Virus record (IMG/VR): IMGVR_UViG_3300010411_000011 | Span: 1-25,708 of that record | Reading direction: 5' to 3' (one strand) | Length of the DNA stretch: 25,708 nt | From: a virus | Shown here: in pieces, positions 2,603-24,035 of the stretch | How the letters are laid out: each line of letters begins with the position of its first letter | Numbering within the stretch: position 1 is the first letter of the stretch | The notes under the pieces: model-generated | Database searches by the model: none | What the model saw: only the letters and a program-made list of their open reading frames with translations | Told to the model about the DNA's origin: nothing | Position numbers and translations under genes: made by a program

Positions 2603-2625
2603 CTATGGCAAGAAAAATTACATAG
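2603..2625 (-). promoter_or_regulatory. 23-bp imperfect inverted-repeat element, copy 1
   Basis: Ends are CTATG and CATAG with 13 bases between. It matches copies at 10592, 17341 and 24013 in length and sequence. It is the only copy not placed just before a start codon. It lies between the ATPase stop and the terminator hairpin, so read on the - strand it follows the hairpin by 2 bases. Orientation is assigned by analogy with the other copies and is not certain, because the ends are palindromic. Possible roles are a promoter, an operator, or an RNA structure or processing site. Confidence 0.6.
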
Positions 2626-2627
2626 AG

Positions 2628-2665
2628 AACCCCAGTCAGGTTTATACCCTAACTGGGGTTTTTAT
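2628..2665 (+). terminator. Intrinsic terminator at the convergent gene junction
   Basis: A stem of AACCCCAGT/ACTGGGGTT plus AGG/CCT with one C-A mismatch (arms 2628-2640 and 2648-2660) and a 7-base loop is followed by a T run (2659-2663, then ATT). It lies 36 bases after the ATPase stop, so it would end replication-operon transcripts. Reading the other way, the stem is followed by TTCTCTATG, a poor U tract, so termination of the late - strand transcript is less certain. The rest of 2592-2688 holds only the 23-bp element listed separately. Confidence 0.85.
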
Positions 2666-2688
2666 TCTCCACCTGCGCGCATACCGGC

Positions 2689-5600
2689 TTACCTACCTGA
2701 ACGTCCCTTTCTACCACCACTACTCTGTCGCGTCGGTGCTCGATACGACTGATGGCCAGCATCCAAACGCTTCAAGCCAAACAACTGGTCTATGGGGGTT
2801 AGATAATAACTGTTAGGATACCTATTATCCCACATTGTTAGATATTTATATATCGGTGTATAACCAAAATGGTCCACCAGTCCGTGTCCCACACCTTGTC
2901 GAGCCATCTGTGCGACCAACTGTATCGGAGGCGCTAGCGGTGTCTTAGGCTCTGCCAGTTTATACGGCATATTAGGATCTTCAGAGCCGTAAATCCAGTG
3001 GTGGAAATAGGGAATTTCCAACAGCATAGCTATCAGATCCTTGTCAAAATGTCTTGCCAGCCCGATCAAGGCTCCCCATAAAAGCGTATAACGGAATAGC
3101 TGCATTCGTTTAGAGTTGCTATAAACATCCTTCCCGCCCTTGACGAAATCAAATACCAATCCAGCACGGAGTTCAAACAGCTTTTGCACAGTGGTCTGGA
3201 ACATGCCTAGTATACGTCCGGCAGGATGCTTCATATACAATGGCTGATCAGGACCGCCACGAAAGTTTGCTTTGCAGATGTTGTCCCAGATCAGTTTATG
3301 CGTCTGCTCCATAGACAGTCCAGCTTTCGCAGCCTGGCCTATCCCTGCAAAGATCGTAGTCCCGTTATCGACTAACTCCGTAAACGTAGTCAGCGCGCCT
3401 GAAAGCACCTTAGCCAGCCGCCAGGCTATGGACGCCCCTGGCGATTCATCCATCATCCGGACGATCTGATCCATGCTCACGAAAGTTTTAAGTACTTTCA
3501 ATTCAACGTTTTCACCTTTGATACCTGCCGCTCGTCCTGCCTGTTGCAAACCTGCCTTTACAGTATGATGAACCCCTTTAAGCGCCTGGCCTGTGGTGTT
3601 AGTCGCAAAGGTGTCGAGAAACTTTGTAGCATGCTTAACCGGAATTGAAAGCGAGCCGCCTACCAGTCTCAGATACTCAAGAGCTACCCAGCCATTTGCT
3701 ATTGTATGAAATATCCCTCCATGTTGCTGATAAACATTAGCCTTCAGCCAGTCTATCAACATCCCTCGCATATGCGGAGGAGCTTGGTATTCAATAAAAT
3801 CGCTCCAACGGTTCAGGAATGGCTGCAAGGCTAACTTACGATTAACCATGGGGATGTAGTTATCCAGAATCATATGCAGATCAGGGATCCAAATTCTGGA
3901 TCTGGGAGATTGATACAAAAACTTAAAGCGTGTAGGCACAGCAGGTTCGTAATTAAACTTCTGCGCCCAACGATCTGTCATCAACTCTCCATACGAATGG
4001 CTCATATACGCACGACTTTCAAGGACGCTAAAACCCAGCGCACGAAGATCCTCACGAGTTTTTTCAAAGTATCCACGAAGCTGTCGGGCTAGTAGCTTCT
4101 CAGAGTCAGAAATCTCCACACCTATCGGAAGTGCATCTCCCGCAGATAATGCTATACGAACACTCGCATGTGCTTTAGCCAGGCCTGGGAGTAGTCTATC
4201 ATACTCCATCACCAGCATTCGTTTGGAGGTTTTAGCATACTTGACAGACTGTTTTTTCAACTTCTTTCTCATAGCTTTCAATTTAGCTAACGTATTCTCA
4301 GCATGCCGCATGTCAGCTATGAACAAATCCCTACGAGGATGCGTAACTGAGACGTTTTCCAAGCGGCTCGTGTTAAGCTTAATCACATCCTGCGCTTCTT
4401 TCATACGTTTGGATAGTCGTGCATATCTAGCTTGATGCTGTTCGCTAACCTCCAAGCGCTTTTTAGCCTTTTTGTACAGCGGGCCTAGGGTTTTCTTAAT
4501 AGCACCTTTAGCCGAAGGCACCATACCGAAGATATCCTTCTTCCATCTAAAGTCATTACTACGATTGCGCCCTGATACCATACCGCATTCCAACAGGTCT
4601 ACAACTGGATGATCCCCAGGAGCGAAGAAAGGTCGTAGCGCAGTGCTAGGGGACATTACATGCCCTTTAGTCGTTCTGCTATCCCCTACTTTACTAAACA
4701 ATAACTTCATATCAGCGTTAGGATCTAACAGCTTAGGCGCATGCTCCGCGATTATCGGTTTAGCACGATTCGGCATTATATACGATCCGCGCAGATATTC
4801 AGGTACGATCCTGCCACGGGCCCTAAGAAATTTGTAGTATTGCTCTACAGCCGGGAGCTTTCCTGTAAACGCCCTATCTAACTCAATCTCCATCCTACGC
4901 TGGATGATCGCTGCGGCACGTTTTTCTTCAGCAGCTGTTAATGCAATAGCTTTTTTGCCCTTAGTCTCAACAATTATATCTGAACGTTGTACTGAACCCT
5001 CCACAGCAGCACTTTCAGCTAACGCTGCAAGCTTCTTCAAATCCTGCTGAAATATACTAAGTCCTTCTTCTGTAGGAGCATCCGCCAGACTGCCTGCACG
5101 TTTAGCAGCGGTACCAAGCGCGGAGGCGACCACATCTGTAGCAGCGGTTTTCAGACGCTTCTCCCTGCGTTTGGCAAGCGCTAAAGCTTCCTTAACCTCG
5201 CGAGCAGTTTTTTTCAGGTCAGAGATATCCCTACCCACTGCCCCACGTTCATCTTCATTCAGCTTCTCTACGGCCTTCCAGATACCATCTACAACTTTCC
5301 GCGCAGTGCCTACATACTCGCCAGATTCAACTCCGTCCAAATCTTCCAGCGAATGTAATTGGCTATGATACGACCGCTCAGTCTCAGCAACTTCCATATC
5401 AATAGCCGCTTGCGCTTCTTCCAACTCCTCAGGACTCAGTACCTGTCTGCGCAGCTTTTTGGATATAGCGTCGTTCGACAGTGTTTCCAACTCCCCTTTG
5501 GCAATTTTATTTCCATAGGTTTGTTGCGTAGCTTCAAGGTCGTCTACCAACTTTCCAAGTTTGTTGATGTCTAACGCAACATCATCATCTTCGTATTCTT

Positions 5601-7830
5601 CGTCCGGTCCAGTATCTTCATAAAGCTCGTCTTCTGCAGCAGCTTCCTCTGCGTCTGAAAGCTCCTTTGTCGCAACACGAAGTTTTTTACCAACCTTAAT
5701 CAGCACTGGCTTAACGTTATCACGCTTAGCTATCGACTCCGCAAAATGCTTGGCGGTAGTGAGGTCATTAAAACTACGTGGATTGATTATATATCCATCA
5801 GCTTTAGCTTCAACTACTGACGCATAGGCAGGTATTGCTGCTAACTGTTGCAGCTCTGCCTCAGCAGTCTGGATTTTTTGCAGTGCTTCCGCAGGACCTG
5901 TCTTACGTCCGACAGGAACCTTAAGCACCTTGCCATTGGATAACGTGTGTTTCCAGTACTTCTCCCCACGCTTAACCATCAACTCTGCCCCAAGCTCCTC
6001 AAGCTCGTCAACAGCGGAGACTGTCGCTGAGAGCGGGGCAGAGAGTTCAGGCTCAGGTATGGTTTCGGATTTGGTTGCTACGTCAAGTTCGGCCTCTGTC
6101 GTAGTCGCTACTTCCCCATCATCCTCTGTCGGCACTTCCAGCGTAGAAACCTCTTCAGGCTCCTCCGCTACTTCAGCCTCTGGAGACTCTTCTGCAACAA
6201 CCTCTTCAGCTTCAGCTTCAGCTTCAGCAACCTTTTCCGCAACTTCAGGCACACGCAGTTTAGAACCCTCACGCCACTCTTTCATGAACTCTTCATGCGC
6301 CTTCAGTCTTGCAAATTCTTCCTGGACGATCTCTTTAGGGATTGCAGCGATTACTTCCAGATCATCGTTTGTCAAACCTTCCCCGGTAAGAAGCTTCTGA
6401 ATAACAGAGAGGTCATAGGCAGGTTCAGCAGCTGGGGCAGCGACAGGCTCTGCTACTTGCTGATCCTCCACAGCCTCTACTTCTTGCGTAGCAGCCTCTC
6501 TGGTAACCGCCAGTGCTACTGCATACGCATCCAATGCTTTCGTTTTGTACGCAGGAAATTTTGTAATCGCTTCAGCCACAGATTTTGTTGTAGCAATTAC
6601 CTCAACAGCCCGTGTGCGTTGATCGTCTGTAAGAGCCTTTCCGAGTTTGTCTATCAGTTCGAAGTTAGTAGTAGCAGTTTCAGCTTCAGCATCAACTTCA
6701 GCCTGCTCATCAACCCCACCCTGCTCATCAACTTCAGCCTGCGGCTTCACAGGCCCTCTATAGGGGGGCGATGTAGAGGTGTTCGCCATAGCAATCGGCC
6801 CACCAACAGCCCCAGCTATGGTTGATTCTATAATACCATCTAAATACCCGACAGACTCATCATACCCATGCTTTTTGATTGCATTCTGAACAAGCTGTTG
6901 GGCATCCTCAGTGCCTGCCTCGCCTACAAAGCCCGTCAAAAACCGCTTACCTGCGGAACCGTTAGCCTTAAGTACTGAATCCAAACCATACTTTTCCAGT
7001 AGGCCTGTCAGTATCGCAGCCTTAGCACTCAGCTGAAAAGCTTCTTTCTCTGTCTTGTCGTGCGCTAGGGCTTCATCCCTGATACCACCACTCTCACCAA
7101 GAGACAGAAACCCTATAGCCACCTCAGGCCCGAACAATGCTGTAAGACCTACTGCAGATGTCAGCGATACGCCACCCTGCATAAGAGCCGAGGCAGCACG
7201 TTCAACACTGGGGTTTTCTACAAAACTACCCGGAAACTTCGGCGTGTGCTCCTGCGCTACTCCTCCCCAGTAGTCTTTAGTGCTTTCCAGAAAAGTATCA
7301 AGTCCCTGCTGGGTAGATTCATTCCATGCATCCATCTTTTTGTTAACAGCTTTAACCCAGTCTGGGCGAGGGTAGGTAGCTTGCGGCATACGCGCATTGA
7401 TCTCTGCTTCACCCTCTTTATACGCCCGCTGGCTACCTTGCAGCATTGACGCTGTACCGCTGATTAGATTCGGTATGACAGCTTTACCTGATTCAGAGAC
7501 TTTATTCCAGTAGGGATTTCCTGACTGGCCAAAATTCATGACGTTGTTGATCGTATCGCTGGCATGCTGTAGCCGCGCATCCTCAGAACGTTCAGCTGGC
7601 CCTGACAGGAATGCGCCGAGTCCTGCAAGGCCGGCAGGAGCTGCCATTAACCCTGACGCGGCAACATCGCCAACGGCGTCTAGCGGTGCTGAAAAGCGCT
7701 GACTGAGATCTTTAGAAGTATCCAGGAACTTTTCATAGTCACCCTTAAGCAGCTCAGGGTCAACTTGAAATGGTTCAGCTCCTGGATGTGTGCTTAACAA
7801 GTCCTCGAAGTTTATTTGCCTGAGTGCCAT
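2689..7830 (-). CDS. Giant internal/ejection-type virion protein (1713 aa)
   Basis: Last gene of the late cassette and by far the largest. Visible layout: three hydrophobic Ala/Gly-rich segments near the N-terminus (residues about 52-78, 213-245 and 332-350), and a GEAGTEDAQQ motif (303-312) similar to segments in other giant phage virion proteins. These are followed by an acidic Glu/Ala/Val/Pro linker (about 360-620), a helical charged region (about 750-1000), and a long, better-folded C-terminal half ending in a basic, Gly/Ser/Arg-rich tail. I see no catalytic signature for an RNA polymerase, peptidase or lysozyme. Position after three smaller candidate ejection proteins suggests DNA ejection or inner-membrane passage; this is inference. 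The start is supported by AGGATGG upstream of ATG. It begins 9 bases after the previous stop. Confidence 0.8.
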   Translation of the reverse strand: MALRQINFEDLLSTHPGAEPFQVDPELLKGDYEKFLDTSKDLSQRFSAPLDAVGDVAASGLMAAPAGLAGLGAFLSGPAERSEDARLQHASDTINNVMNFGQSGNPYWNKVSESGKAVIPNLISGTASMLQGSQRAYKEGEAEINARMPQATYPRPDWVKAVNKKMDAWNESTQQGLDTFLESTKDYWGGVAQEHTPKFPGSFVENPSVERAASALMQGGVSLTSAVGLTALFGPEVAIGFLSLGESGGIRDEALAHDKTEKEAFQLSAKAAILTGLLEKYGLDSVLKANGSAGKRFLTGFVGEAGTEDAQQLVQNAIKKHGYDESVGYLDGIIESTIAGAVGGPIAMANTSTSPPYRGPVKPQAEVDEQGGVDEQAEVDAEAETATTNFELIDKLGKALTDDQRTRAVEVIATTKSVAEAITKFPAYKTKALDAYAVALAVTREAATQEVEAVEDQQVAEPVAAPAAEPAYDLSVIQKLLTGEGLTNDDLEVIAAIPKEIVQEEFARLKAHEEFMKEWREGSKLRVPEVAEKVAEAEAEAEEVVAEESPEAEVAEEPEEVSTLEVPTEDDGEVATTTEAELDVATKSETIPEPELSAPLSATVSAVDELEELGAELMVKRGEKYWKHTLSNGKVLKVPVGRKTGPAEALQKIQTAEAELQQLAAIPAYASVVEAKADGYIINPRSFNDLTTAKHFAESIAKRDNVKPVLIKVGKKLRVATKELSDAEEAAAEDELYEDTGPDEEYEDDDVALDINKLGKLVDDLEATQQTYGNKIAKGELETLSNDAISKKLRRQVLSPEELEEAQAAIDMEVAETERSYHSQLHSLEDLDGVESGEYVGTARKVVDGIWKAVEKLNEDERGAVGRDISDLKKTAREVKEALALAKRREKRLKTAATDVVASALGTAAKRAGSLADAPTEEGLSIFQQDLKKLAALAESAAVEGSVQRSDIIVETKGKKAIALTAAEEKRAAAIIQRRMEIELDRAFTGKLPAVEQYYKFLRARGRIVPEYLRGSYIMPNRAKPIIAEHAPKLLDPNADMKLLFSKVGDSRTTKGHVMSPSTALRPFFAPGDHPVVDLLECGMVSGRNRSNDFRWKKDIFGMVPSAKGAIKKTLGPLYKKAKKRLEVSEQHQARYARLSKRMKEAQDVIKLNTSRLENVSVTHPRRDLFIADMRHAENTLAKLKAMRKKLKKQSVKYAKTSKRMLVMEYDRLLPGLAKAHASVRIALSAGDALPIGVEISDSEKLLARQLRGYFEKTREDLRALGFSVLESRAYMSHSYGELMTDRWAQKFNYEPAVPTRFKFLYQSPRSRIWIPDLHMILDNYIPMVNRKLALQPFLNRWSDFIEYQAPPHMRGMLIDWLKANVYQQHGGIFHTIANGWVALEYLRLVGGSLSIPVKHATKFLDTFATNTTGQALKGVHHTVKAGLQQAGRAAGIKGENVELKVLKTFVSMDQIVRMMDESPGASIAWRLAKVLSGALTTFTELVDNGTTIFAGIGQAAKAGLSMEQTHKLIWDNICKANFRGGPDQPLYMKHPAGRILGMFQTTVQKLFELRAGLVFDFVKGGKDVYSNSKRMQLFRYTLLWGALIGLARHFDKDLIAMLLEIPYFHHWIYGSEDPNMPYKLAEPKTPLAPPIQLVAQMARQGVGHGLVDHFGYTPIYKYLTMWDNRYPNSYYLTPIDQLFGLKRLDAGHQSYRAPTRQSSGGRKGRSGR
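6205..6228 (-). repeat. Hexanucleotide tandem repeat (TTCAGC)x4 in giant-protein linker
   Basis: Four perfect TTCAGC units on the + strand, read as GCTGAA on the coding strand, encode alternating Ala-Glu in the acidic linker of the giant virion protein. Being an in-frame hexamer, unit gain or loss would keep the reading frame. Confidence 0.9.
6690..6741 (-). repeat. Overlapping short direct repeats in giant-protein linker
   Basis: A 16-base unit (CATCAACTTCAGCCTG) occurs at 6690-6705 and 6726-6741, and a 13-base unit (CCTGCTCATCAAC) at 6702-6714 and 6720-6732. They encode a repeated VDEQ/EVDEQ-type acidic peptide. This looks like slippage-driven expansion inside a disordered linker. Confidence 0.8.
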
Positions 7831-9653: not shown

Positions 9654-10583
9654 TTACGAAAAATATCCTGCAACCCCACCGACAATGCCTCCAGCTAACG
9701 CTCCCCAGGGACCTGCGGCCATACCTGCTGAAGCACCGCTGGCTGCACCACCCAACGTATTCTGGACCTTAGAGCCGCTCTTGGAGCCTCCATCGTTGAT
9801 AGGACTGACGCCACTGATCGAGGCCAGCACTGCTGAGTAATGCTGAAAAAGCTCTAAATTCCATGTAGAATCTTTAACATTGGCCTCGCTGTAGAACTTA
9901 GTCTCGTCAAACTTACCAGCTATATACATTCGTGCGGCTTCAAGTCCTTGCGCAACTAGCTGCGTATGCCAGCTAAGATACTGCTGAAAAACCTGCCCAG
10001 CTACATTGACCATAGCACGATTAAGCTCAGCTGCAAGCTTAGTTACTGCCAGATTTTTCTTACTCTCAAGCAGTGCTTGTCCGATACTGAATGCGGATGT
10101 CATCACACATTGCATATCTCGCATACCTGTTTGAAATCTAGGCAATACAGTGCTATCCATATCATCATTCATTAAAGCTATTTCAGAGTTCAACGTATCA
10201 GTGTAGGCAGCGCAGGTAGACACACTCGCAAACACTGCGTTAAACGTAGCCACAACGTCTATGTTAAGATTATTCTCAAACAGGTTATACAGCGTTGTCG
10301 GACGTTCTCCAAACATGTCATCTACTTTATCAGGTAGATAATCCATATATGGAGAATTATCGAAAAGATTGTTTATGAAATATGTAATACTATGCGCAAG
10401 CTCTGTATCTCCATTCGCTGTCAACGCACGATTATGCGCCTTTTTTAGATAGCTGGGCCAGTCAGAACCTCCACCACCACCGCTACCTTTCGCTAACGCA
10501 ACCTGTCCTGTGTACTCAAAAGAAGTCTCCTCCAAAACTTCCATTGTGCACATATCAAGTACAGTTTTGGTAATAACTTTCAT
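9654..10583 (-). CDS. Putative internal/ejection protein with C-terminal glycine zipper
   Basis: A 309-aa protein. The N-terminus (MKVITKTVLDM... EYTGQVALAKG) is of a type I associate with podophage internal proteins, followed by a Gly5 linker. The central ~200 residues are mostly helical. The C-terminal ~35 residues are Gly/Ala-rich with small-xxx-small spacing (GAASGASAG, GALAGGIVGG), a glycine-zipper pattern typical of membrane-inserting segments. It starts at an ATG preceded by AAGGAG and is the first gene after the 23-bp element at 10592-10614. It heads the four-gene module ending in the giant protein. A role in forming or lining the ejection channel is an inference. Confidence 0.7.
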   Translation of the reverse strand: MKVITKTVLDMCTMEVLEETSFEYTGQVALAKGSGGGGGSDWPSYLKKAHNRALTANGDTELAHSITYFINNLFDNSPYMDYLPDKVDDMFGERPTTLYNLFENNLNIDVVATFNAVFASVSTCAAYTDTLNSEIALMNDDMDSTVLPRFQTGMRDMQCVMTSAFSIGQALLESKKNLAVTKLAAELNRAMVNVAGQVFQQYLSWHTQLVAQGLEAARMYIAGKFDETKFYSEANVKDSTWNLELFQHYSAVLASISGVSPINDGGSKSGSKVQNTLGGAASGASAGMAAGPWGALAGGIVGGVAGYFS

Positions 10584-10591
10584 ACCAGCTC

Positions 10592-10614
10592 CTTTGGCAA
10601 TAAAAATGCCATAG
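10592..10614 (-). promoter_or_regulatory. 23-bp imperfect inverted-repeat element, copy 2
   Basis: Most divergent copy: CTATGGCA...TGCCAAAG on the - strand, differing from copy 1 at 4 of 23 positions. The inner stem TGGCA/TGCCA is perfectly paired here, with one A-A mismatch further out. The element ends 8 bases before the ATG at 10583, and its last bases run into the AAGGAG ribosome site. It starts just beyond the stop of the upstream 144-aa gene. Confidence 0.6.
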
Positions 10615-10615: not shown

Positions 10616-11050
10616 TTACAGACGCTTAGAGATCACAGAAAACGTTTTAACCAATCCGAATTTCTCCAACTTCTCACAAAGATACTCGTTGTTGGTATAG
10701 CCTGTCATTACAGTGCAGTTATTATGTTTGGCAAAAGTCTGTAGTTTTTCAAAACCTTCCTGCCAATCCTCTTCTGTCAGCGGACGTACTCCGTACAGCA
10801 CGTAAAGACGGAAGAAGCGCTGATCGCTGAAAGTATCTGTTGCAATTTCAGATATGACAAAACACTTAAAGCGGTCCGATTGAGGCTCAGTGGATATCCA
10901 GCACTGAAACTGCCCCATGAGAAGCTTCTTGAGTATGTCATTCATAGCAGCGTCATTGTCGGCCGTCATAGGAGGCAATACCTGCTGACAGCCGTGCTTG
11001 ATAATATCCCAATAGACAGATACTTGTTCTGGTAAAAGTTTAATAAACAT
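10616..11050 (-). CDS. Small protein, possibly GNAT-like acetyltransferase fold
   Basis: A 144-aa protein from the ATG at 11050, chosen because AGGAGG lies 8 bases upstream. The in-frame GTG at 11059 falls inside that ribosome site. The C-terminal half (a helix with a strand TVMTGYTN, then helix EYLCEKLEKFGL, then final strand FSVISKRL) resembles the end of GNAT acetyltransferase domains. The acetyl-CoA-binding R/QxxGxG/A loop is not evident. GNAT-like proteins are known in podophage structural clusters, including internal virion proteins, but function here is unknown. It overlaps the tail-like gene by 11 bases, so it is translationally linked to it. It is the last gene before the second 23-bp element. 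Confidence 0.6.
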   Translation of the reverse strand: MFIKLLPEQVSVYWDIIKHGCQQVLPPMTADNDAAMNDILKKLLMGQFQCWISTEPQSDRFKCFVISEIATDTFSDQRFFRLYVLYGVRPLTEEDWQEGFEKLQTFAKHNNCTVMTGYTNNEYLCEKLEKFGLVKTFSVISKRL

Positions 11051-12356
11051 TTGTAGCACCTCCTGAGGCTATCGGACCTCTACGATACCTACGATCTCCG
11101 TACTGTACATGGGCTTGAACGTAGTCCAGAAACGTAGGTTCAAGCACTGCTGAATCGCGTACAAAGCGCAGCCCGATCATGAACTCTATGGCTGTAACCC
11201 CTATATGCACATATCCTTCATGATTCAAGCGCACATTAGGAAATTTTCTAAAAGAATCGTTTTTGCGATAGCGGTAGTAGACTACTGCCCAAACATTCGT
11301 AGCCTCATCGAAGTCAATCCCGAAGGAAAGTCCTGTGATTGTTTTCAAACCACGCTGGCCAAAATCCTCTATATGCGACACACACTCATGTGTGACCAGA
11401 GGTAGTGTGTTGTTAGCCGCAGAGGGGGCTATGACCGTCAGCGTATCCTCATATCGTACCAAGTCGGTAATGAGCAGGTCTAGAGAGGTTAAGCCTAGTT
11501 CTGGATTGTATACCAATGTAGTCTCAGTCTCAACGCTGGAGAAGAATGCTCTACCTGACAGCTGGTCAAACATGCCTACCATATTACCGCTAAACTTTTC
11601 GAAATATTCCGCATAGCCTAGCTTATCAGGCGTGTTCTCAGGCTGAATACGGTATAGATTGTTATCTTCTCCGACGAAGTAGTGTACCAATTCATTACCG
11701 GCTACTGCATAACGTCCAGCCAGACCGAAGTTAAACAACACGTTTTGGCCATATCCAGAGTGGGGTTCAGATACAGGGTGAAACTTTGAAATCCCATTCT
11801 CTCCGTATACCATCATACGGTTGCCTAACTTCTTCACCTGCCAAACGTCACCTGACCATGGAAGTACTGCATGCCCAGCGGTGATATTATCAGAACTCGG
11901 AATGATATTGAAATTGCCAATACCTGACCATGCAACAGTGTTTAGCTTGCTATAGGTTTTAGCAAACGTTCCTGTTATGTAACTTTCGCCGAAAATCGAA
12001 GTTGCGGAGATTACAACGCTACGGGCGAGGTTAAAGGATAGCAGCCCGGCGCCGATGATCTTGTTGGCGAGGTCCCCAATACTGCCGCCGTGCGGATATA
12101 TTCCTGTGATATAGCCGCTGCCACTAGGCCAGTTACCGTGATCGAAATACCAGTCGAGCAGTGGGCCGTAATCCCCGCCGTCCGATAGATCAATTGTGAC
12201 GTCAAAGTTTTCGTTATGGACAAAAGTTGCAGGTGTAGCAGTGGCACTAATAGTACCACTGCCAGCTACAAAACCTGCCTCGATGCGGATGCTTAGCAGA
12301 TCGACCGAGCTAGCTAAATAGCCACTGCCCTCTATACAACCAACATCAATTTCCAT
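11040..12356 (-). CDS. Putative tail (nozzle/tail-hub type) structural protein
   Basis: A 438-aa protein. The N-terminal ~80 residues are beta-rich and Ser/Gly/Thr-rich, followed by a WYFDHG-type segment. The middle has strands spaced like a propeller or beta-sandwich (GNRMMVYGENGI, AGNELVHYFVGEDNNLYRI). The C-terminus has the pattern RLNHEGYVHIGVTAIEF...VQYGDRRYRRG, which resembles the end of podophage tail proteins I know only as virion structural proteins. It is placed after the RCC1-like pair and the 142-aa protein. No enzyme motif is seen. The start ATG has only a weak site (TTAGG). A tail role is an inference from fold character and gene order. Confidence 0.6.
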   Translation of the reverse strand: MEIDVGCIEGSGYLASSVDLLSIRIEAGFVAGSGTISATATPATFVHNENFDVTIDLSDGGDYGPLLDWYFDHGNWPSGSGYITGIYPHGGSIGDLANKIIGAGLLSFNLARSVVISATSIFGESYITGTFAKTYSKLNTVAWSGIGNFNIIPSSDNITAGHAVLPWSGDVWQVKKLGNRMMVYGENGISKFHPVSEPHSGYGQNVLFNFGLAGRYAVAGNELVHYFVGEDNNLYRIQPENTPDKLGYAEYFEKFSGNMVGMFDQLSGRAFFSSVETETTLVYNPELGLTSLDLLITDLVRYEDTLTVIAPSAANNTLPLVTHECVSHIEDFGQRGLKTITGLSFGIDFDEATNVWAVVYYRYRKNDSFRKFPNVRLNHEGYVHIGVTAIEFMIGLRFVRDSAVLEPTFLDYVQAHVQYGDRRYRRGPIASGGATNVY

Positions 12357-14609: not shown

Positions 14610-16291
14610 ATAAGCTCCACAAAGGTATCTGTCTGAGAATCGCCAGACAGAATATAGTCTCCCAAACGAAACAAGCCAGAAGAGGTTTTTGCTATAAGAG
14701 TCGGCAGTCCATGAATGAGTGTAAAATCTTCCACACCTTCCAATACCTTGGTGGGAATTAGAGTAGGTTGCACCACTGAACCATCTAAAATGGAAGGCAT
14801 TTCGCCCCAGGCGTATAGATTGCCCTCGGCATCTAATGCCGCACAACAATAGTATCCCTGAATAACCTTTACAATGTTGGATAGTGTGGGAATTTTAGTC
14901 GGATACATTACATGCTCAAGCTCTTGCCAGGTCCAATCCAATCCTGAAATTCCATTGTGGTTCCAGCCGAAGAAATACACGTCACCTGCTTCGGAAAGGG
15001 CTAATACAGCGTGTGTAAAGGCTGAAATAGATGTAAACTTTACAGCCGCATTTGGACCCTCAACAGGCGCAAAGCTGGTGTAGTAAGTACGTGTACGGTA
15101 GGAATACTCCCCCCTGCCTACACAGGGATCACCTATCTGCCCGCATGTGCATAAAATGCCATCATCGCGGATAGCATAAGATGCGGAAGCGCCTATAGCA
15201 ACTGCTTTATACGCAGCACTCTCGTTGAGTTCAACATAGCTCTCAGCTATACCCCCATCCTCAACGCGAAATTCGTGGGTAGGCACTATATCGCCTAACA
15301 GATTGCAGTAGTTATACCCTGCACCATAAAGCTTGCCTGAAATGAGCAGCAGTCCAACATCATCATAAGGGGTGAAATCTATATCAGACACATTTTCAAG
15401 TAATGTGTTTTGATAGAACTTGTTAAAATGCTCCGCCTCGTCACCTAATCCTAAACAGTAGCCTTCACCAACCACAGAGAGTTTTCCGGCGGTGGTTAGT
15501 ATCGCAGATCCATACGCATTGGTTACGATTTTTTTAATAGGACTTGTTAATGCTACGTCAAAAACGCAGGGTTCTAGGGTGGCTACCGGTGTATCTTGTG
15601 GATAACCAGAATACCGATAAGGAGTATCATCTCCGTGACAGTAGAGTGTAGCCGCGTCAAGGTAGAATAAGCCTGCCCAGCCGCTAGGATATAACTGGCC
15701 TAAAGATATCGGAGAAGCAGCTCCCGCTCCCCAAAAGATGCCGTTTTCTGCACGGTCTAAAGGATACTCATGTGGAGAGAAATCGTGATAATGGACAGCT
15801 GCCATTCGAATCCGTGCATCAATGTCTGTAAGGGCTGAGAGATCAATCCCGCCAGCAAAAACTTGCCCGTCAAAGAGTTCTAGGGTAGTCGCGAGTCCAT
15901 ACCAAGGATTTCGAGTAAGGGCGAAGCTGGCGATTGTAGGATCATACACAACCTTGGCTACACCGTTTGAGAATAGTGCAAAATCGTTTAGGATCAGTCC
16001 AGCCCAACGTAGGCCTACTTCGAGATTAGGAATGATAGTTTCCTGAACTGGTAGAAGTTTTACCAAACTGGAGGCCGTGAGACAGTATAAGCAGTCTTTG
16101 AATATGAAAAGTTGACCTGTAGGCCAGGTAGTTGAAAGCGCAGACAACTCTGTAATATCCTCAGGCGTTACTATTTTCTTATTCCTCCCCATCAGATTCG
16201 TGGCCACACTGCAGCAATGCTCGCCACGTTTTGTGCGTGAAGTTCTGCGCAGACCGCTAAAGCCTTTTATCTGATGAGTAAATTCTTGCAT
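14606..16291 (-). CDS. RCC1-like beta-propeller virion protein, first of tandem pair (561 aa)
   Basis: Residues 1-180 form an N-terminal module shared with the downstream gene: ALFSNGVAKVVYD (105-117), LFDGQVFAGGIDL (139-151), YPLD (176-179). Residues ~190-561 carry about six RCC1-like blades, each with a 'V..I.. G...A.L..G.LY.WG.N..G.LG' pattern. Examples are GSAILTTAGKLSVVGEG, VGLLLISGKLYGAGYN, ASYAIRDDGILCTCGQ, AVLALSEAGDVYFFGWNHNG and CAALDAEGNLYAWGE. RCC1-like propellers usually serve as binding scaffolds. In this position the protein may be a tail nozzle, adaptor or receptor-binding part. The ATG overlaps the upstream stop as TAATG, with no clear ribosome site, implying coupled translation. 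Repeat identity is clear; function is inferred. Confidence 0.8.
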   Translation of the reverse strand: MQEFTHQIKGFSGLRRTSRTKRGEHCCSVATNLMGRNKKIVTPEDITELSALSTTWPTGQLFIFKDCLYCLTASSLVKLLPVQETIIPNLEVGLRWAGLILNDFALFSNGVAKVVYDPTIASFALTRNPWYGLATTLELFDGQVFAGGIDLSALTDIDARIRMAAVHYHDFSPHEYPLDRAENGIFWGAGAASPISLGQLYPSGWAGLFYLDAATLYCHGDDTPYRYSGYPQDTPVATLEPCVFDVALTSPIKKIVTNAYGSAILTTAGKLSVVGEGYCLGLGDEAEHFNKFYQNTLLENVSDIDFTPYDDVGLLLISGKLYGAGYNYCNLLGDIVPTHEFRVEDGGIAESYVELNESAAYKAVAIGASASYAIRDDGILCTCGQIGDPCVGRGEYSYRTRTYYTSFAPVEGPNAAVKFTSISAFTHAVLALSEAGDVYFFGWNHNGISGLDWTWQELEHVMYPTKIPTLSNIVKVIQGYYCCAALDAEGNLYAWGEMPSILDGSVVQPTLIPTKVLEGVEDFTLIHGLPTLIAKTSSGLFRLGDYILSGDSQTDTFVELI

Positions 16292-16638
16292 TATAGTATC
16301 CCGTTACTCCGAGCACGTCCGTCTAGACTGTCCAAAGCAGGTTTATCCGCATTGTAATTTACAGCAGCTTGCTGCACAGTTTGTGTATACTGCTCAGCAG
16401 CAGTGGATAGAATCTGCGAAGTTTCCCAATCAGGGTGCTGGTTTTCTACTTGCTGCACCACTAACGCGAAAGACTTGTCTCCTTTGAGATGGGCGTATTT
16501 AGCGTGGAAATCATCTAGCAGTTTCTGCGAATACGCGCCTTGCTCCATCAAACGTGCTAGGACGGCAGGGAGCATACGAAGCACAGTCTCAACAGATTTC
16601 TGAACGAGGAATTCTTCTCTGGGCGTTAACACATTCAT
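16291..16638 (-). CDS. Small mostly helical protein in the neck/tail module (115 aa)
   Basis: Starts at an ATG overlapping the adaptor-gene stop (ATGA), with AAGGAT just upstream, and ends in TAATG overlap with the first RCC1-like gene. The protein is mostly alpha-helical by composition (Ala, Gln, Leu, Glu rich, for example EEFLVQKSVETVLRMLPAVL near residues 8-27) with no catalytic or membrane motif. The fixed, coupled position between the adaptor and the tail-type genes suggests a neck or tail accessory protein. I do not recognise a family. Confidence 0.65.
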   Translation of the reverse strand: MNVLTPREEFLVQKSVETVLRMLPAVLARLMEQGAYSQKLLDDFHAKYAHLKGDKSFALVVQQVENQHPDWETSQILSTAAEQYTQTVQQAAVNYNADKPALDSLDGRARSNGIL

Positions 16639-17333
16639 CGCAGATCCTTGTGTTTACAGTGTTGAGTAATCATGTCTTTTTCAAGCTCTATCAACTCAGC
16701 AGTAATCCCAGCAAGCCAATCGTTAGCTCCAGCAGTGTTGCGATTAAAGACTTCGAGTTTATACAAACTGGCCATTAGCAGCAGATCAGGATAGTTAACA
16801 GACCAGAAGTTATCATCGTAATTAGCGAGCAGTTCGTCAGATTCAAACAGCCCTTCTATTTCCAGTACATAATCGCCATCAGCAACGTTGAATACTACGC
16901 CTGTCTGAGCCTCGTCGTCGGTAGTAACGTATTGCAGAAACTGGGCTAAAGATTCAAAGGCAGTTAAATCTGTTGAACGTAGGTTGATAGGTGTGTAGTA
17001 TGCAGGACGCCCTGGAGCCCTTGTGCTGACAGGTCCAGCAAACGCCTGATAGAAATCTATCGGCGTGCATAGTTCCACCTCAGTACGAGATTCTGTGTTA
17101 GAGATCCATACACGTTCTATCGCCCGACAGCGTGTAAACGTTTTGTAGAAATCATTGGCAGCGACTGCGATAAAACTAGTCGCCTTGGATTTCAAATGCT
17201 GTACGGATTTATCTAAAAAACGCGTACCTGCTTGAATGAAGAAATCAGCGCCAGAATCTGAATCATCCTCGTTCAGCAGATCAAACCTACCTGAACGTTC
17301 TGCAAACAATTTTCGGATTTGCATTAGAGTCAT
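16635..17333 (-). CDS. Head-tail adaptor/connector, gp6-like
   Basis: A 232-aa protein with features of the podophage gp6-like adaptor family. The N-terminus MTLMQIRKLFAERSGRFDLL is followed by GADFFIQAGTRFLDKSVQHLKSK (residues ~29-51; Asn/Asp-Gly-Ala, then the LDK helix). It continues with CRAIERVWI (68-76), a P-x-YY-x-P-x-x-LR segment (~109-119), and the C-terminal run WSVNYPDLLLMASLYKLEVF with RNT.G..DW. Such proteins form a ring under the portal and link the capsid to the tail. It starts the second late module, directly after the capsid-gene hairpin and the 23-bp element ending 7 bases before its ATG. The assignment is by pattern memory without a database search. Confidence 0.7.
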   Translation of the reverse strand: MTLMQIRKLFAERSGRFDLLNEDDSDSGADFFIQAGTRFLDKSVQHLKSKATSFIAVAANDFYKTFTRCRAIERVWISNTESRTEVELCTPIDFYQAFAGPVSTRAPGRPAYYTPINLRSTDLTAFESLAQFLQYVTTDDEAQTGVVFNVADGDYVLEIEGLFESDELLANYDDNFWSVNYPDLLLMASLYKLEVFNRNTAGANDWLAGITAELIELEKDMITQHCKHKDLR

Positions 17334-17340: not shown

Positions 17341-17363
17341 CTATGGAAATAAATTTTACATAG
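17341..17363 (-). promoter_or_regulatory. 23-bp imperfect inverted-repeat element, copy 3
   Basis: CTATGTAAA (arm), AUUUA-type loop and UUUCCATAG (arm) on the - strand; 8 of 9 arm positions can pair, with one mismatch at position 6. It differs from copy 4 at a single base. It ends 7 bases before the adaptor ATG (17333) and abuts the GC-rich hairpin after the capsid gene, sharing its outer TAG. Confidence 0.65.
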
Positions 17364-17386
17364 GGGGAGGTGTTATCCTCCCCCTA
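17361..17386 (-). terminator. GC-rich hairpin after the major capsid gene, probable partial terminator
   Basis: A perfect 10-bp stem (TAGGGGGAGG at 17361-17370 and its complement at 17377-17386) with a 6-base loop lies 13 bases beyond the capsid stop. On the - strand it is followed by TGTAAAATTTATTT, an AT-rich but interrupted U tract, so it may be leaky. A leaky terminator just after the capsid gene would be analogous to T7's terminator after gene 10. It could also act as a 3' mRNA stabiliser. Confidence 0.6.
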
Positions 17387-17399: not shown

Positions 17400-18704
17400 T
17401 TACGAAGGCGTACCGTTAGCAGAGCCAAAACCGGTCAGCACAGCGCACTTTTGAGGGAAGTGGAACTCCAAGCCGCACTCAGTCAGCCACTCTTCAGCAG
17501 TGCCGTCATAACGCGTTTTACCTGTGTTCTGCTTCTCACCATCTTTGTAGAATGTAGTATCCGTAATGTAACGATAACGGATATCAGAGCCGTCAAAGAT
17601 CACCAACGTGTTACGATCGGTCTGCTCGTAGGAGAACAGTGGATGGCGTTTGAAGTTGATGATACCGAAGGGGGTTTCGTAGGAGACGACTGCCATCCCA
17701 TAACGTCTTTCCCCGCCAGTGATAGTATACTGAGCGTTGTTTTTAATCAGCTTGTTCATGGCCAGGATAACGCCCGAACCACAGAACGCATCACGTTCAG
17801 ATCCACCATAACGGAAGACCTGTTCCAGGTAGTAGTCAAGCCATTCCTCACCGGCATCTACCCAGTTTTTATCAGTGAACTCAACGGCTGTCTCAGTCGT
17901 GAAATCATGGACAATGGAGCCAAGGGCCGTGTTCTGGCGAATGAAGTTAATCAGGCCCAGAGTGGTACGTTCAGGCTTGCCATTATCACCGATGTTTTCA
18001 GTTTTGATCCCCCACAGAAACGCCTTTTCCATTTCAATGCCGTGGAGTTCCAACGCTTCCCGTTTGGCTTCGGCATAGGCATCACCTGTCCGCAGCTTGG
18101 TTTTACGGGCAGTACGGGAAATCTCCAGCGGGGTGCGAAAGATCTGGGTCAGGCCGTAGTATTTGGTGGGATCATACGCGATCGGAGTCGGCATAGCACC
18201 CATTTCAGGGTTGATGTTACCGATAACCAGAATACGATCACAATCGCTGAGATCGCCAGAGCTGGAATTATCATCAGCCTCCAGCAGGCGAACAGTGATG
18301 ACGGAGTTGGCACCGTTTTTATCTGCCGCAATACACTTCGCCACGACGTCTACGGTGTAGTCAGACTCATCACGCAGCAAAACCTGATGACCAGGACGGA
18401 AATGCTCTGCAGTCGCCAGAGGTACTTTAACATACAGAACGGTTCCGGCAACAGCGCCAGAGACGTATGCAGACGACAGGGCAGAATCGGTGTATACATT
18501 CGTGACAGCGCCGCTTTGAGTGGCCAGTGCTTTGGTCCACCAATAGTATTCTGGATCGTCTACACTTTCAGCACGCATGAGACTCGTAAGGGCAGTCAGG
18601 GGCATATCACCATCGGGGTAGATGCGCAGAAGACCACTACGCCAGTTTTTGGGGCGCTCGTCAGTTGCGAAGTCATTAGAAGCGCGAGTTCCGAGAAGAG
18701 CCAT
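17400..18704 (-). CDS. Major capsid protein, DUF5309 / SU10-type HK97 fold
   Basis: A 434-aa protein with hallmarks of the DUF5309 (SU10 major capsid) family. The N-terminal region SGLLRIYPDGDMPLTALTSLM (residues ~24-44) is followed by DPEYYWWTKAL (~51-61). An inserted beta-rich segment (LRDESDYTVDVVAKC...) precedes the YYGLTQIFRTPLEISRTA helix (~180-197), AEAKREALELHGIEMEKAFLWG (~209-230) and GNNG-like glycine stretches. The C-terminus carries HPLFSYE...LVIFDGSDIRYRYI. It forms the icosahedral shell. It lies downstream of the scaffold and decoration genes in canonical order. The start ATG has GAAAGG upstream. No cleavable N-terminal delta domain is evident, and a separate scaffold gene is present. 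Confidence 0.9.
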   Translation of the reverse strand: MALLGTRASNDFATDERPKNWRSGLLRIYPDGDMPLTALTSLMRAESVDDPEYYWWTKALATQSGAVTNVYTDSALSSAYVSGAVAGTVLYVKVPLATAEHFRPGHQVLLRDESDYTVDVVAKCIAADKNGANSVITVRLLEADDNSSSGDLSDCDRILVIGNINPEMGAMPTPIAYDPTKYYGLTQIFRTPLEISRTARKTKLRTGDAYAEAKREALELHGIEMEKAFLWGIKTENIGDNGKPERTTLGLINFIRQNTALGSIVHDFTTETAVEFTDKNWVDAGEEWLDYYLEQVFRYGGSERDAFCGSGVILAMNKLIKNNAQYTITGGERRYGMAVVSYETPFGIINFKRHPLFSYEQTDRNTLVIFDGSDIRYRYITDTTFYKDGEKQNTGKTRYDGTAEEWLTECGLEFHFPQKCAVLTGFGSANGTPS

Positions 18705-19389: not shown

Positions 19390-19400
19390 AAAAGCTCCTT

Positions 19401-20330: not shown

Positions 20331-20583
20331 CACGCACCTCCTTCTCCATGATAGACACAATTACTGTAGGCAGTTGTTGTAGGTCTCTCGCAGCTCTAAT
20401 GCAACCCTGAAGATACGAAACTTCAGCCGGGGTCAGCTCAGGGTTTTCCAGCGCTGTGTGGGCATCCGAAATCCAAGCAGAGATTTCTTGCCTCATATCA
20501 GACCAGATGGTAGACTCCGCAAAAGCGGCAAACTGTCCCGGAGTACTACGATAATTCTCAGTATTAGGCAATTTAATCGACAT
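20314..20583 (-). CDS. Small conserved-looking phage protein between portal and scaffold (89 aa)
   Basis: Starts 2 bases after the portal stop and ends inside the scaffold gene, so it is fully coupled to both. The protein is largely helical, with TPGQFAAFAESTIWSDMRQEI (residues ~14-34) and LTPAEVSYLQGCIRAARDLQQLP (~50-72), and an acidic C-terminus. It shows no catalytic, membrane or DNA-binding motif. The position suggests a head-assembly helper. Family is not recognised, but the coding status is strongly supported by spacing and composition. Confidence 0.7.
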   Translation of the reverse strand: MSIKLPNTENYRSTPGQFAAFAESTIWSDMRQEISAWISDAHTALENPELTPAEVSYLQGCIRAARDLQQLPTVIVSIMEKEVRDALED

Positions 20584-20585
20584 TG

Positions 20586-22529
20586 TTATAGCATCCCTTC
20601 TTGCGCTGCCTGCTCAACAGGTATCATATTACCTTTTTGAACCTCCTCTTGAATCTGCGCAGTTGGCTGTACATCAGTGCGTATGAAATCTTCTACATTT
20701 TTAGCTCCGTTATTCCGCGCAATGTGCTTGAATATGCGAGTAATGTCAAACTTCTGGGTTAGCTCAGGATGCTGTGCAAGCTGCGTAAACATCGTTTCCC
20801 AGACTTTAGAGTAGTTACTCCCAGGAATAGACCCCTCACTCACCAACACGTCGTAGTCGATAGAGATATCATCCGGAGTGACTGAGAAACGTGTGGGAGC
20901 TTTATCTCCAAACTCTGCTTGAAGCTGGGAAAGCCAATCTCCTGTTACTTTGACGTAGGCATCCTGTGACATAAACTGTTGCGTATGCGCTGCGAAAAAC
21001 TCAGCAATATCATTCAGGCCCTGATAGCTAATAACCTGTACGATGCGGTTTAGACGCGAGAAGGCACCCTGGCGAGTTCCCTGAAACTCCTCCCCTGTCA
21101 GTCGCTCAGGCCCGCCCTGTCGTAATGCGCCCATAGAGCCATCATCAGCTGCTCCAATACGCTGCATCCACTGGACAATGAAAGCAGAATCGGCTACATG
21201 GCCTTGAGTCACATCTGAGACGGGCAGCTGCATGATAGAATCTTTAACGCCCTTACCCCAGGCAGGCCGACGAGTACGCACCAGCTTACCCTCATCCGGC
21301 TTCTTCAAATCATTTCCATTGAGCATGAAAGGATCGTAGATTAATACATCATTGATAGCCTTGCGCACATTCGTTATATGCGCATTGAAGAGCCAATCTA
21401 GTGTTCCTTGCAGCCCAAACAGCATTTCAAGACGGGAGATGGGCGCGGTGGAATATCCATCAAACTCAGGCGCTCCGATGGCTACTGGATACATATCATG
21501 CCACAAACCCAGCGGCTTGGCTTCGATGAGAACGCTGTCAGCAGCGACAGTTAGCAGCCATTTTTCAGGATACTTGCTAGAACCAAGTCCGTGCTCAGCC
21601 GGGATTAGTTTAACATACATTACAATTTTATCGACAGGGTTAACCACAGCGTTGTTTTCAATATTACCCATCTGGTGTTTAGTATCTCGCCCAGACGGAT
21701 CATGCTCCATGATAGCTGTCTGCTTTCCTGCAACGTGTTTTAGATAGCGAACATTGAACAACTCGCCATCAGATGTTTTTTCTTCTGCTAAAAGATTCAT
21801 GAGATTGGTATGCTCTACCCAACCCACAAACTCCCCTTTTTGAATGTCTTGGATAGCTACGCTTGGATCAGGTAGGAAGGTGTAGGGATCGATATTAGTC
21901 AACCCATTACCTTCAAATACAACCTCAGACTTGTCAGCCTTTTTAGAAAACATAGACAGGATTGAGGATATCCCACTGACCTGTTTAGAGCGTCGTTGAG
22001 ATGTTTTACGAATCCACACAGGTGCAGTAGCCCCAAAGCCGTAGACTAGCATATCCCGAAAATACGTGTGAAGATTTAACGGTACTTTGTTTTTAGCCAC
22101 ATGGACGTTTATTACATGTTGGAGGAGTGTGGCTCCTACTACATCCTCCGGCCCAACACCTTCGTAGCGAAAGACGGGATCTTGGAAAAACGAGGCGCAG
22201 AGATAGCTGAGGATGGTTTCTAGGATAGCGTAGGAGTAGGGAAATACTATCGAAACCGGCCGACGTTTATCAGCGTTTTTAACTTCCTTCTCAGCTTTGC
22301 TTAGAGGAATAAACCCAGTAAGCACATGATCAATCTCCCGCCAGGAACTGTGCCGGCTAGTCATCACACCAGCGCTGGCCCGCGCCCTATCCAACACCAG
22401 TTTAACCAGTTTGTCATGCTGATCAGTGCCGGGCTTTAGCTTCAACTGCTCAGGATAGTCATAGTCATAACTAACCTTTAGCAGGTCTGTGTTAGAGCGG
22501 GATTCCGCAGGATTGATTATGGCTGGCAT
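20586..22529 (-). CDS. Portal protein (647 aa)
   Basis: A large protein directly downstream of the terminase, with podophage-portal features. The N-terminal helical region contains W-x-E-I-D (about 63-67) and the hydrophobic stretch IVFPYSYAILETILSYLCASFF (~94-115). This is followed by the FRDMLVYGFGATAPVWIRK segment, then NIDPYTFLPDPSV (~218-230), a typical portal wing motif. ISRLEMLFGLQGTLDWLFNAHI (~370-391) and TGEEFQGTRQGAFSRLNRIVQVI (clip/stem region) come next, and the C-terminus is a helical, Gln-rich barrel-like tail. It forms the dodecameric channel through which DNA is packaged and ejected. A CTAGGAG site precedes the ATG 10 bases after the terminase stop. Confidence 0.9.
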   Translation of the reverse strand: MPAIINPAESRSNTDLLKVSYDYDYPEQLKLKPGTDQHDKLVKLVLDRARASAGVMTSRHSSWREIDHVLTGFIPLSKAEKEVKNADKRRPVSIVFPYSYAILETILSYLCASFFQDPVFRYEGVGPEDVVGATLLQHVINVHVAKNKVPLNLHTYFRDMLVYGFGATAPVWIRKTSQRRSKQVSGISSILSMFSKKADKSEVVFEGNGLTNIDPYTFLPDPSVAIQDIQKGEFVGWVEHTNLMNLLAEEKTSDGELFNVRYLKHVAGKQTAIMEHDPSGRDTKHQMGNIENNAVVNPVDKIVMYVKLIPAEHGLGSSKYPEKWLLTVAADSVLIEAKPLGLWHDMYPVAIGAPEFDGYSTAPISRLEMLFGLQGTLDWLFNAHITNVRKAINDVLIYDPFMLNGNDLKKPDEGKLVRTRRPAWGKGVKDSIMQLPVSDVTQGHVADSAFIVQWMQRIGAADDGSMGALRQGGPERLTGEEFQGTRQGAFSRLNRIVQVISYQGLNDIAEFFAAHTQQFMSQDAYVKVTGDWLSQLQAEFGDKAPTRFSVTPDDISIDYDVLVSEGSIPGSNYSKVWETMFTQLAQHPELTQKFDITRIFKHIARNNGAKNVEDFIRTDVQPTAQIQEEVQKGNMIPVEQAAQEGML

Positions 22530-22538
22530 TAAAAACTC

Positions 22539-24005
22539 CTAGATAATTTGATATGCAGAAAGGTCTATAGCAGGAGGGTTTTCCAACTGCTCAAACTCAT
22601 CAGCATCATTAGGCAAATCCATCGGATCAAAGTATATTGCTTCTTTTTCCATGACTTCGACAATATACGCTGCCGCATCCATAACATCCCATTTGCGGGA
22701 TCGAGGAAAAGTCAGTAGTTGCTGCTCGTATTTCTCAGAAATTGCCTTGTTGTGTGTGATATAGCCTTGGCGATAAAACGGTGCGAGCCAGGCTACACGC
22801 TCTTCCTTCTTCCCTCTAGCATTCAGCGCGACTAGATGAGGAAAAATCCCACGTTTCCGCATCTCGTTTTTGAGCGGCTGGAGAATAAACTCATTAAGGG
22901 AAGTTACTTCGATTGCTAGTATATCCGCATTATACTGCACAACCATATCGAAAATCGCATCGTAGAGTTGGTCAGGATACAGAGTGTCAGCAGTGCAATC
23001 TCTGAAATGCATCAGCTTCGATGTACGATCAATCCCCCAGCACACAACAGCAGAGTCAGCTGAGTGTAGCTGGACAGTTTTAGCCGGATCGACGATGACT
23101 ACATTGGTCAGATGTGAAGGCACCAGCTTCGTCTCGTCGTGATATTTGAACATATCAGCTTTGAACGTCGCGTTTTCGGTAGATATTGGAATATTACGAT
23201 ATTCGCGATAAAACACGTCCAGCTGCTTACGACGTTTATAGCCTTCATACAGCTTACGAACCTCTGAGTCTGGCATAAAATCAGGCCAGTTTGATTTTAG
23301 ATCATCATCGCAGATTTCAAGCCGTACACTGTCCCATTCAGGGTCATCTAATAGGTTGACCAGTAGCGCATCTTCATGAAGGACTGTTCCAATCACGATT
23401 ATCCGCCAGTCTTTCGATGAGCGGTCTACACAGTTGCAGAGATCCGCGAAAAACCAATCTTTTAGCTTCAAGCGCAGCTCTGGATTCATGACGCTTTCAG
23501 CATCTTCTAGATCATCTACGATGATTAGATCAGGGCGTTGGTTTCCGTAGAGAATTCCGCGCACCTGCTGCCCGGCACCCCTTGGCATAACCATCGTACC
23601 GCCAGCAGTAATCCAGCAATCTTTTGAAAACACATCTGATTTCAGCGGTCCGAACAGTTTACGAATGTTGACGTTAGTCATCAACTCCCGTTTTAAGTTC
23701 TCGCCCTGCATTACTGCGTGTGTGGCAGTAGCAGACACAGGTACAATGAACTTCTTTTCTTGGAATAGTATCCGTTTTGCAGGATACGTGATGGTGTTGA
23801 TCGTAGTTTTTCCAAAACCCCTGGGCGCGGCGATAGCTACCCGCTGCTTAGAATCATCATCCAGCAACTTGAAGATCTCATCATGCAAGGATGAGAATGG
23901 GTTGTAGAAACGTTCAGGAAACAGTACTTTGGAAGTAACTTTCGTACTTCGCACACACTGTGCCATGATCTGTTTCAACGCAGGATTTTGAATTGCCTGT
24001 GACAT
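22539..24005 (-). CDS. terL: Terminase large subunit (TerL), ATPase-nuclease
   Basis: A 488-aa motor that cuts and pumps DNA into proheads. ATPase: Walker A APRGFGKTT (residues 60-68), Walker B LIIVDDLED (160-168) with catalytic Glu, and coupling motif IVIGT (203-207). Nuclease: Asp306 in VVIVDPAK, Glu366 in ILAIEV, and KWDVMDA (438-444) supplying the last acidic residues. Start chosen at the ATG at 24005 (MSQAIQ...). The open frame extends to a GTG at 24080, but that region overlaps the upstream gene and has poor coding character. The ATG is preceded by only AGGCG, which belongs to the end of the 23-bp element. It is the first gene of the head module. Confidence 0.95.
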   Translation of the reverse strand: MSQAIQNPALKQIMAQCVRSTKVTSKVLFPERFYNPFSSLHDEIFKLLDDDSKQRVAIAAPRGFGKTTINTITYPAKRILFQEKKFIVPVSATATHAVMQGENLKRELMTNVNIRKLFGPLKSDVFSKDCWITAGGTMVMPRGAGQQVRGILYGNQRPDLIIVDDLEDAESVMNPELRLKLKDWFFADLCNCVDRSSKDWRIIVIGTVLHEDALLVNLLDDPEWDSVRLEICDDDLKSNWPDFMPDSEVRKLYEGYKRRKQLDVFYREYRNIPISTENATFKADMFKYHDETKLVPSHLTNVVIVDPAKTVQLHSADSAVVCWGIDRTSKLMHFRDCTADTLYPDQLYDAIFDMVVQYNADILAIEVTSLNEFILQPLKNEMRKRGIFPHLVALNARGKKEERVAWLAPFYRQGYITHNKAISEKYEQQLLTFPRSRKWDVMDAAAYIVEVMEKEAIYFDPMDLPNDADEFEQLENPPAIDLSAYQII

Positions 24006-24012
24006 TGAACGC

Positions 24013-24035
24013 CTATGGAAAGAAATTTTACATAG
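24013..24035 (-). promoter_or_regulatory. 23-bp imperfect inverted-repeat element, copy 4
   Basis: CTATGTAAA...TTTCCATAG on the - strand with 8 of 9 arm positions pairing; nearly identical to copy 3. It overlaps the last codons of the upstream 103-aa gene (its ATG-TAA end lies inside the element) and ends 7 bases before the terminase ATG. Overlap with coding sequence shows it is maintained despite little intergenic space. Confidence 0.65.

Follow-up and report, generated by a model that had tools for sequence, protein, structure and literature searches.

In the temperate Streptomyces phage phiC31, palindromic repressor sites called conserved inverted repeats (CIRs) occupy many intergenic places. 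Cluster A mycobacteriophages carry L5-type stoperators, many dispersed repressor sites whose specificity varies among related phages (PMC9283540, PMC6550527), and cluster K phages like TM4, Pixie and Anaya carry start-associated sequences (SAS) and extended start-associated sequences (ESAS), repeats placed directly 5' of gene starts, with the ESAS being inverted repeats whose sequence varies between subclusters (PMC3203893). T7-type and N4-type promoters are also found in many genomic copies upstream of genes. Here we describe a 23-bp dyad that recurs in a 25.7-kb genome fragment from a tailed phage that has not been cultivated (virus record IMGVR_UViG_3300010411_000011, positions 1 to 25,708, hereafter the window) and in its relatives. 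Judged by its sequence pattern, the element is a DNA dyad at a predicted protein-dimer recognition site and not an RNA or N4-type hairpin.

The dyad differs from each of these systems. The phiC31 CIRs involve a different protein family and a different sequence. L5-type stoperators are asymmetric and are bound by a monomeric two-domain repressor in temperate phages, whereas here the sites are symmetric 23-bp dyads, no integrase was found and the candidate binder is ribbon-helix-helix-like. In the case of cluster K, SAS is a conserved asymmetric 13-mer and ESAS consists of two 17-bp repeats separated by a variable spacer of mostly 4-13 bp, whereas here a single dyad of fixed length is seen; on comparison with PMC3203893, the site sequences of the clade did not show the 13-bp SAS (GGGATAGGAGCCC) with 17-bp repeats. 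From T7-type and N4-type promoters the present sites are set apart by their dyad symmetry, their invariant half-site spacing, the lack of within-phage pairing and the failure to find a T7-type polymerase.

The initial annotation of the window had reported four 23-bp copies of an imperfect inverted repeat, CTATG-N13-CATAG. All four lie where it had placed them, but the count was one short. A half-site matrix was built from the window and scanned over the window and its shuffles, giving five sites in the window and none in the shuffles. The additional dyad (CTTTGGCAATTTTATTTCCATAG; in the sense direction CTATGGAAATAAAATTGCCAAAG) is located at 5496-5518 on the minus strand, within the gene of a 1713-aa protein. 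The exact pattern CTATG-N13-CATAG was found three times against 0.04 expected from dinucleotide shuffles, and the half-site consensus in the window is CTATGKMAA. Copy 1 (CTATGGCAAGAAAAATTACATAG, 2603-2625, no strand assigned) occupies a convergent junction, with the stop codon of the primase on one side and a terminator-like repeat on the other. Copy 2 (10592-10614, minus strand) lies 8 nt 5' of the ATG of the gene at 9654-10583 and overlaps the Shine-Dalgarno sequence of that gene. Copy 3 (17341-17363, minus strand) lies 7 nt 5' of the ATG of the gene at 16635-17333, and copy 4 (24013-24035, minus strand) 7 nt 5' of the terminase ATG.

To place these copies in context, related phages were collected by protein scans. 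The terminase scan yielded 13 contigs and a scan with the candidate binder R1 (see below) four new ones. From the primase came 27 loci that partly overlapped with these, and a protein search added Desulfofustis phage OP947158 (L018), an annotated complete genome. Altogether, about 30 related phages share the DNA polymerase, primase and ParB-methylase genes. The window used as a DNA query gave no match in the phage collection. Site thresholds were tuned on the known copies, with shuffles as controls. The genes of the relatives are simple open reading frame (ORF) calls, many contigs are incomplete, and for counting, contigs were assembled from overlapping pieces of single records only. All counts across the clade should be read as coming from phages that share ancestry and are not independent samples.

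Nearly all of these relatives carry a dyad of their own with its own sequence; it is 23 bp long, or 24 bp in a single subclade, and mostly present in 5-17 copies, while their shuffled genomes gave 0 to 1 matrix matches. The further copies in relatives on which the initial annotation had staked its claim were therefore abundant. The half-sites are phage-specific: CTATGTCCCAANTTGGGACATAG in OP947158, CTTTGTTCA in G002 and CTATGTAAA in G005 (9 copies each), CTWTGTCCA in G001 (6 copies), CTATGGGGA in G028 (10 copies), CTATGGTAA in G021, which is different from that of G028, and GAGYGGTCA in G038 (17 copies). Dyads were also counted in G024 (12 copies), G027 (11), G029 (15) and G030 (13), and the 24-bp form in G033 and G034. 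Two contigs from metagenome-assembled genomes (MAGs) that were found later, outside the discovery set, both carry R1 and dyads: L160 has CTTTGATGATTNAATCATCAAAG in 8 copies, with dyads of 23 bp, and L161 the 24-bp form. Because L161 is a close relative of G033 and G034 (81% identity of the primase), the 24-bp form was counted as one event. L160 (JAUUZE010000001.1, 48 kb) and L161 (JASEGW010000001.1, 46 kb) are labelled as bacterial MAG genomes; they look like whole phage genomes of the clade that were binned as bacteria.

The initial annotation had argued for selection on a hairpin or a dyad. Selection on a dyad received strong support, but the argument from compensatory pairing for a hairpin failed. 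An RNA hairpin could serve as a translational operator, an RNase site or an N4-like single-stranded hairpin promoter, and two observations would suit it: the overlap of sites with Shine-Dalgarno sequences, and a strong covariation of the arms between phages, with pairs 6, 7 and 8 being complementary in 185, 182 and 187 of 208 sites (expected 88, 78 and 73). We then re-paired the half-sites at random inside each phage over positions 1-9. This gave 1608 +/- 9 expected complementary pairs against 1549 observed, and positions 3 and 4 were paired even less than the re-pairing expectation. Within-phage pairing is thus not above random, which indicates that the half-sites are read independently. Among the mismatches, G-U (29) was not commoner than A-C (42). 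The total length was 23 in 194 of 196 inward-facing half-site pairs and 24 in the G033/G034/L161 subclade; as a hairpin loop would tolerate length changes, this invariant spacing points to a rigid protein dimer on the helix. In some phages the symmetry reaches positions that are unable to pair in a hairpin, and in OP947158 it extends into the dyad centre and flanks. An Rfam search gave no match. On partner-shuffling, fixed spacing, the missing G-U bias and the Rfam result, the RNA hairpin was rejected, and we hold it to be extremely unlikely in any of its three forms, including the N4-like promoter and the RNase site named in the initial annotation.

The individual copies can be read in the same way. 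The pairing stated for copies 3 and 4, at 8 of the 9 positions of the arm, is arithmetically right. Copy 2, which is mismatched at arm positions 3 and 9, does show the letter change that had been described as compensatory, but across the 208 sites such changes are no evidence of pairing. The arms of copy 1 pair at just 6 of 9 positions; its half-sites CTATGGCAA and CTATGTAAT each match the half-site consensus without pairing with one another. Two independent half-sites at fixed DNA spacing, as found here, are what an operator would be expected to show, and of the roles listed in the initial annotation the operator of a dimeric regulator fits best.

The dyads are preferentially placed with respect to genes, mostly 7-17 nt 5' of a start codon. 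At about 59% of the oriented sites an ATG follows 5-13 nt downstream, and many sites begin right at the stop codon of the upstream gene. The commonest location is 5' of the gene following the capsid gene (14/20); copy 3 represents this most conserved site location of the clade. The post-primase spot is used in 12/24, and the position equivalent to copy 1 is also occupied in G001, G002, G003, G004 and W01. In G001, G002 and OP947158 (L018 15470-15492), the equivalent site after the primase precedes a small gene. Probably this small gene was lost in the lineage of the window, leaving its dyad between primase and terminator. RNA hairpins are enriched just 5' of the dyads: 22% have z < -2 there, as compared to 10% at more distant upstream positions and 4% downstream. 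At several sites, copy 3 among them, the hairpin end coincides exactly with the dyad edge. The hairpin at copy 3, GGGGAGG-N6-CCTCCCC without a U tract (17364-17383, minus strand), lies downstream of the capsid gene, and similarly abutting hairpins were seen in G003, G004, G022, G026 and G027. The hairpin together with the dyad was considered as an intrinsic terminator and dropped, as these hairpins usually come without a U tract.

Could the dyad be the promoter core of a dedicated machinery, with transcription starting at or just after CAWAG|G? Sites precede many operons, and some lie 0-5 nt after a hairpin and 7-12 nt before a start codon, with no space for a separate host promoter. However, T7-type promoters are not symmetric, and sites are also found inside genes and at convergent ends. 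The G following the dyad is present in 62/79 cases where a start codon is near and in 22/75 where it is far, so that it mainly reflects the Shine-Dalgarno sequence. The initial annotation had suggested a promoter for a phage RNA polymerase encoded elsewhere; this is not supported, since PF00940 was found in 0/11 records (ten clade members and the window) with T7 as a positive control, and the T7-type promoter was rejected on that result. An N4-type virion RNA polymerase is less firmly excluded, as PF00940 may miss N4 types; the large virion protein of the window gave no matches in PHROG, Pfam and PDB searches. No other conserved sequence was detected from -90 to -4 upstream of the dyads. Sigma70-like promoters showed no excess near them and none stood at a fixed distance, and a host sigma70 promoter in such an arrangement was discarded. 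Overall, a promoter function of the dyad is very unlikely. An activator is also unlikely because no promoter fits between most sites and the start codon.

In search of a protein that could bind the dyads, we focused on R1, a protein of about 80 aa encoded just 5' of the small lysine-rich c16, which is followed by the ParB-methylase fusion, the DNA polymerase and the primase. The window does not extend as far as R1, and its closest relative with that region, G003, has the end of an R1 at the contig edge. R1 was present in 29 of 30 clade contigs covering the region and c16 in all 30; the thirtieth contig, G040, has a divergent ORF (MEKHHQIHVDIKEETFKELCRLLPEPRMVSWLVRKLI) with the R1 pattern in the equivalent place, R1 being recognised by synteny and pattern. 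Neither gene was found in nine outgroup phages that share the primase and lack dyads (PaP2, Mel-JY34, Tiera, Kuura, EBPR podovirus 3, VS-ABTNL-3 and three others). In 8 members a dyad lies immediately 5' of R1, no more than about 15 nt from its start, as compared to about 10% of all ORFs. A second R1 scan of the collection returned the same loci again, and tblastn with R1 in phages gave nothing.

The sequence of R1 resembles a ribbon-helix-helix pattern (for example RLSIEISEEQ...LIPWG...); the N-terminal sequence of CopG is RLTITLSES. An AlphaFold2 model (mean pLDDT 77, residues 11-40 above 90) begins with an unpaired stretch, which is followed by helices at 11-20 and 26-44, and this modelled order would be that expected of a ribbon-helix-helix monomer. 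R1 resembles Arc, Mnt, CopG and NikR in its strand-helix-helix sequence pattern (RLSIEIS as compared to RLTITLS in CopG), and Arc binds as a dimer of dimers to a dyad of about this length. These regulators act at one or few operators, whereas R1 could be assigned to no Pfam or PHROG family and has an (I/L)PWG turn. Given a phage-encoded binder, R1 is probably that protein, as judged from synteny and phyletic pattern.

Two further proteins should be mentioned here. The ParB-methylase was considered as the binder of parS-type sites and rejected, because the gene occurs in 4 of the 9 outgroups without dyads. In OP947158 (L018 10342-11634) and its orthologues clade-wide it is annotated as 'ParB-like partition protein', which is misleading, as it consists of ParB_N fused to an N6/N4 DNA methylase. 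R2, a second and unrelated ribbon-helix-helix-looking protein, occurs in about 22/30 members (G001 35977-36366, G002 1941-2414, G005 11001-11720, possibly L018 862-1191).

Taken together, we lean towards a phage-encoded dimer at the dyads, most likely R1, that would act on transcription at unit borders. Each copy would be a double-stranded DNA site with two inverted half-sites at fixed spacing, read by the identical halves of a dimer or dimer of dimers, with the Arc/CopG-type R1 as the most likely binder. With sites at the borders of genes or operons, the genome is split into units of a few kilobases, and at these borders the bound protein may repress, stop or reset transcription by the host RNA polymerase; in several phages R1 may also act at its own gene. 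In favour of the transcriptional effect are the gene-border position, the hairpins that abut dyads and the recurrence of sites at the same genes. As a candidate function, taken on its own, we judge it to be about evenly balanced.

Several observations weigh against this proposal. The match of the R1 profile to CopG, NikR, Arc and Mnt is in register but weak (hhalign P 0.0045, probability 7.8%), and R1 had no meaningful match in Pfam, PHROG, PDB sequence and Foldseek searches. Its divergence tracks half-site divergence no better than that of other proteins (partial Mantel r 0.06), and c16 and terS outscore it in the Mantel tests. By eye, no simple residue code for the half-sites was visible in the R1 strand. 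The clade shares ancestry, and therefore the co-occurrence of R1 and dyads amounts to one or few independent events. R1 is also carried by G031 and G039, in which no dyad was detected, while G036 is weak. Finally, operators explain the even spacing and the in-gene sites no better than genome organisation does, and the site at a convergent gene end points towards the latter.

In such a genome organisation, a protein at evenly spaced dyads would serve replication, packaging or protection by bridging, condensing, tagging or segregating the phage DNA, and sites would stand 5' of genes merely because a compact genome has room there. The dyads are in fact spaced more evenly than randomly chosen gene starts (combined Fisher p ~1e-20) or uniform positions (~3e-15), p-values that are nominal because the genomes are related. 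An internal site was found in 12 of 21 listed long ORFs (mostly the large virion-protein gene), that of the window included, and some sites lie at convergent gene ends. Variation of the specificity among relatives would also agree. A precedent is CdbA, a ribbon-helix-helix protein that takes part in organising the nucleoid (PMC7156744). On the other side stand the abutting hairpins upstream of a subset, the repeated use of the same gene borders, and a weak residual polarity relative to transcription at positions 3/21 (AA 17 vs TT 4 where the ATG is more than 13 nt away). We consider genome organisation unlikely, though it is the main alternative to a transcriptional effect. A broader idea is that lytic phages organise or mark their own DNA through evenly spaced, phage-specific palindromes with a tiny ribbon-helix-helix protein and a small basic partner. 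Jointly with this organising or self-recognition idea, specificity would vary among relatives and the longest gene would carry an in-gene site when it has no intergenic gap. We regard this as rather doubtful.

Dispersed, mostly intergenic and phage-specific sites also resemble L5-type stoperators (PMC9283540), where the repressor of a temperate, possibly cryptic, phage blocks RNA polymerase elongation genome-wide, and immunity would predict half-site specificities that vary among relatives. Against such a network, a tyrosine integrase (PF00589) was found in 0/18 members with a positive control, the matches in the genome collection were only phage-sized contigs in MAGs with no integrated prophage found, and the pink berry phages, the Desulfofustis phage among them, are predicted to be strictly lytic (PMC10370329). 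Thus, the temperate stoperator was rejected on the missing integrase and prophage, and we see little probability in it. In comparison to the known systems, new is the combination of fixed-length, evenly spaced, phage-specific dyads in an integrase-less clade with a candidate ribbon-helix-helix binder. Our literature search found no report of lytic phages that combine dispersed dyads and a ribbon-helix-helix protein, and neither the sites nor R1 had a match in the databases and literature searched.

When a phage has no known polymerase or repressor, it is usually taken to rely on ordinary host promoters. The clade described here, whose members are mostly uncultivated, shows genome-wide and individually tuned dyads, predicted to bind a protein, together with a tiny conserved candidate binder. 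If true, this would make the timing or organisation of these phage genomes accessible to testing, provide some 28 protein/DNA specificity pairs as a natural library, and give a metagenome marker for the clade. So regular a spacing is unusual, and one may ask what use a short viral genome has for a site every few kilobases.

As to the gene layout of the window, DNA polymerase and primase are encoded on the plus strand (41-2591), and terminase, portal, capsid, tail genes and the 1713-aa protein on the minus strand. The 3' part of a family A DNA polymerase gene (41-1432) is followed by the primase (1410-2591, phrog_14296) and by an inverted repeat with a T run (2628-2660, plus strand), which from its sequence resembles a terminator for the primase operon and is partly bidirectional. 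On the minus strand follow the putative internal virion protein of 1713 aa that contains the fifth dyad (2689-7830, without a family match), the major head protein (17400-18704, phrog_1328), the portal or head-tail connector protein (20586-22529, phrog_332) and the large terminase subunit (22539-24005, phrog_38).

Two minor observations were made along the way. In the complete genome OP947158 (L018), deposited as 'circular', positions 1-127 are repeated at 44317-44443; this 127-base end repeat is either a leftover assembly overlap or a terminal repeat. In the window, two adjacent and overlapping frames on the minus strand (12795-14849 and 14606-16291) form one family among the relatives, and the second matches PHROG profiles of 'regulator of chromosome condensation' (RCC1-like) proteins, which suggests that the pair may be duplicated RCC1-like propeller proteins in the tail region.

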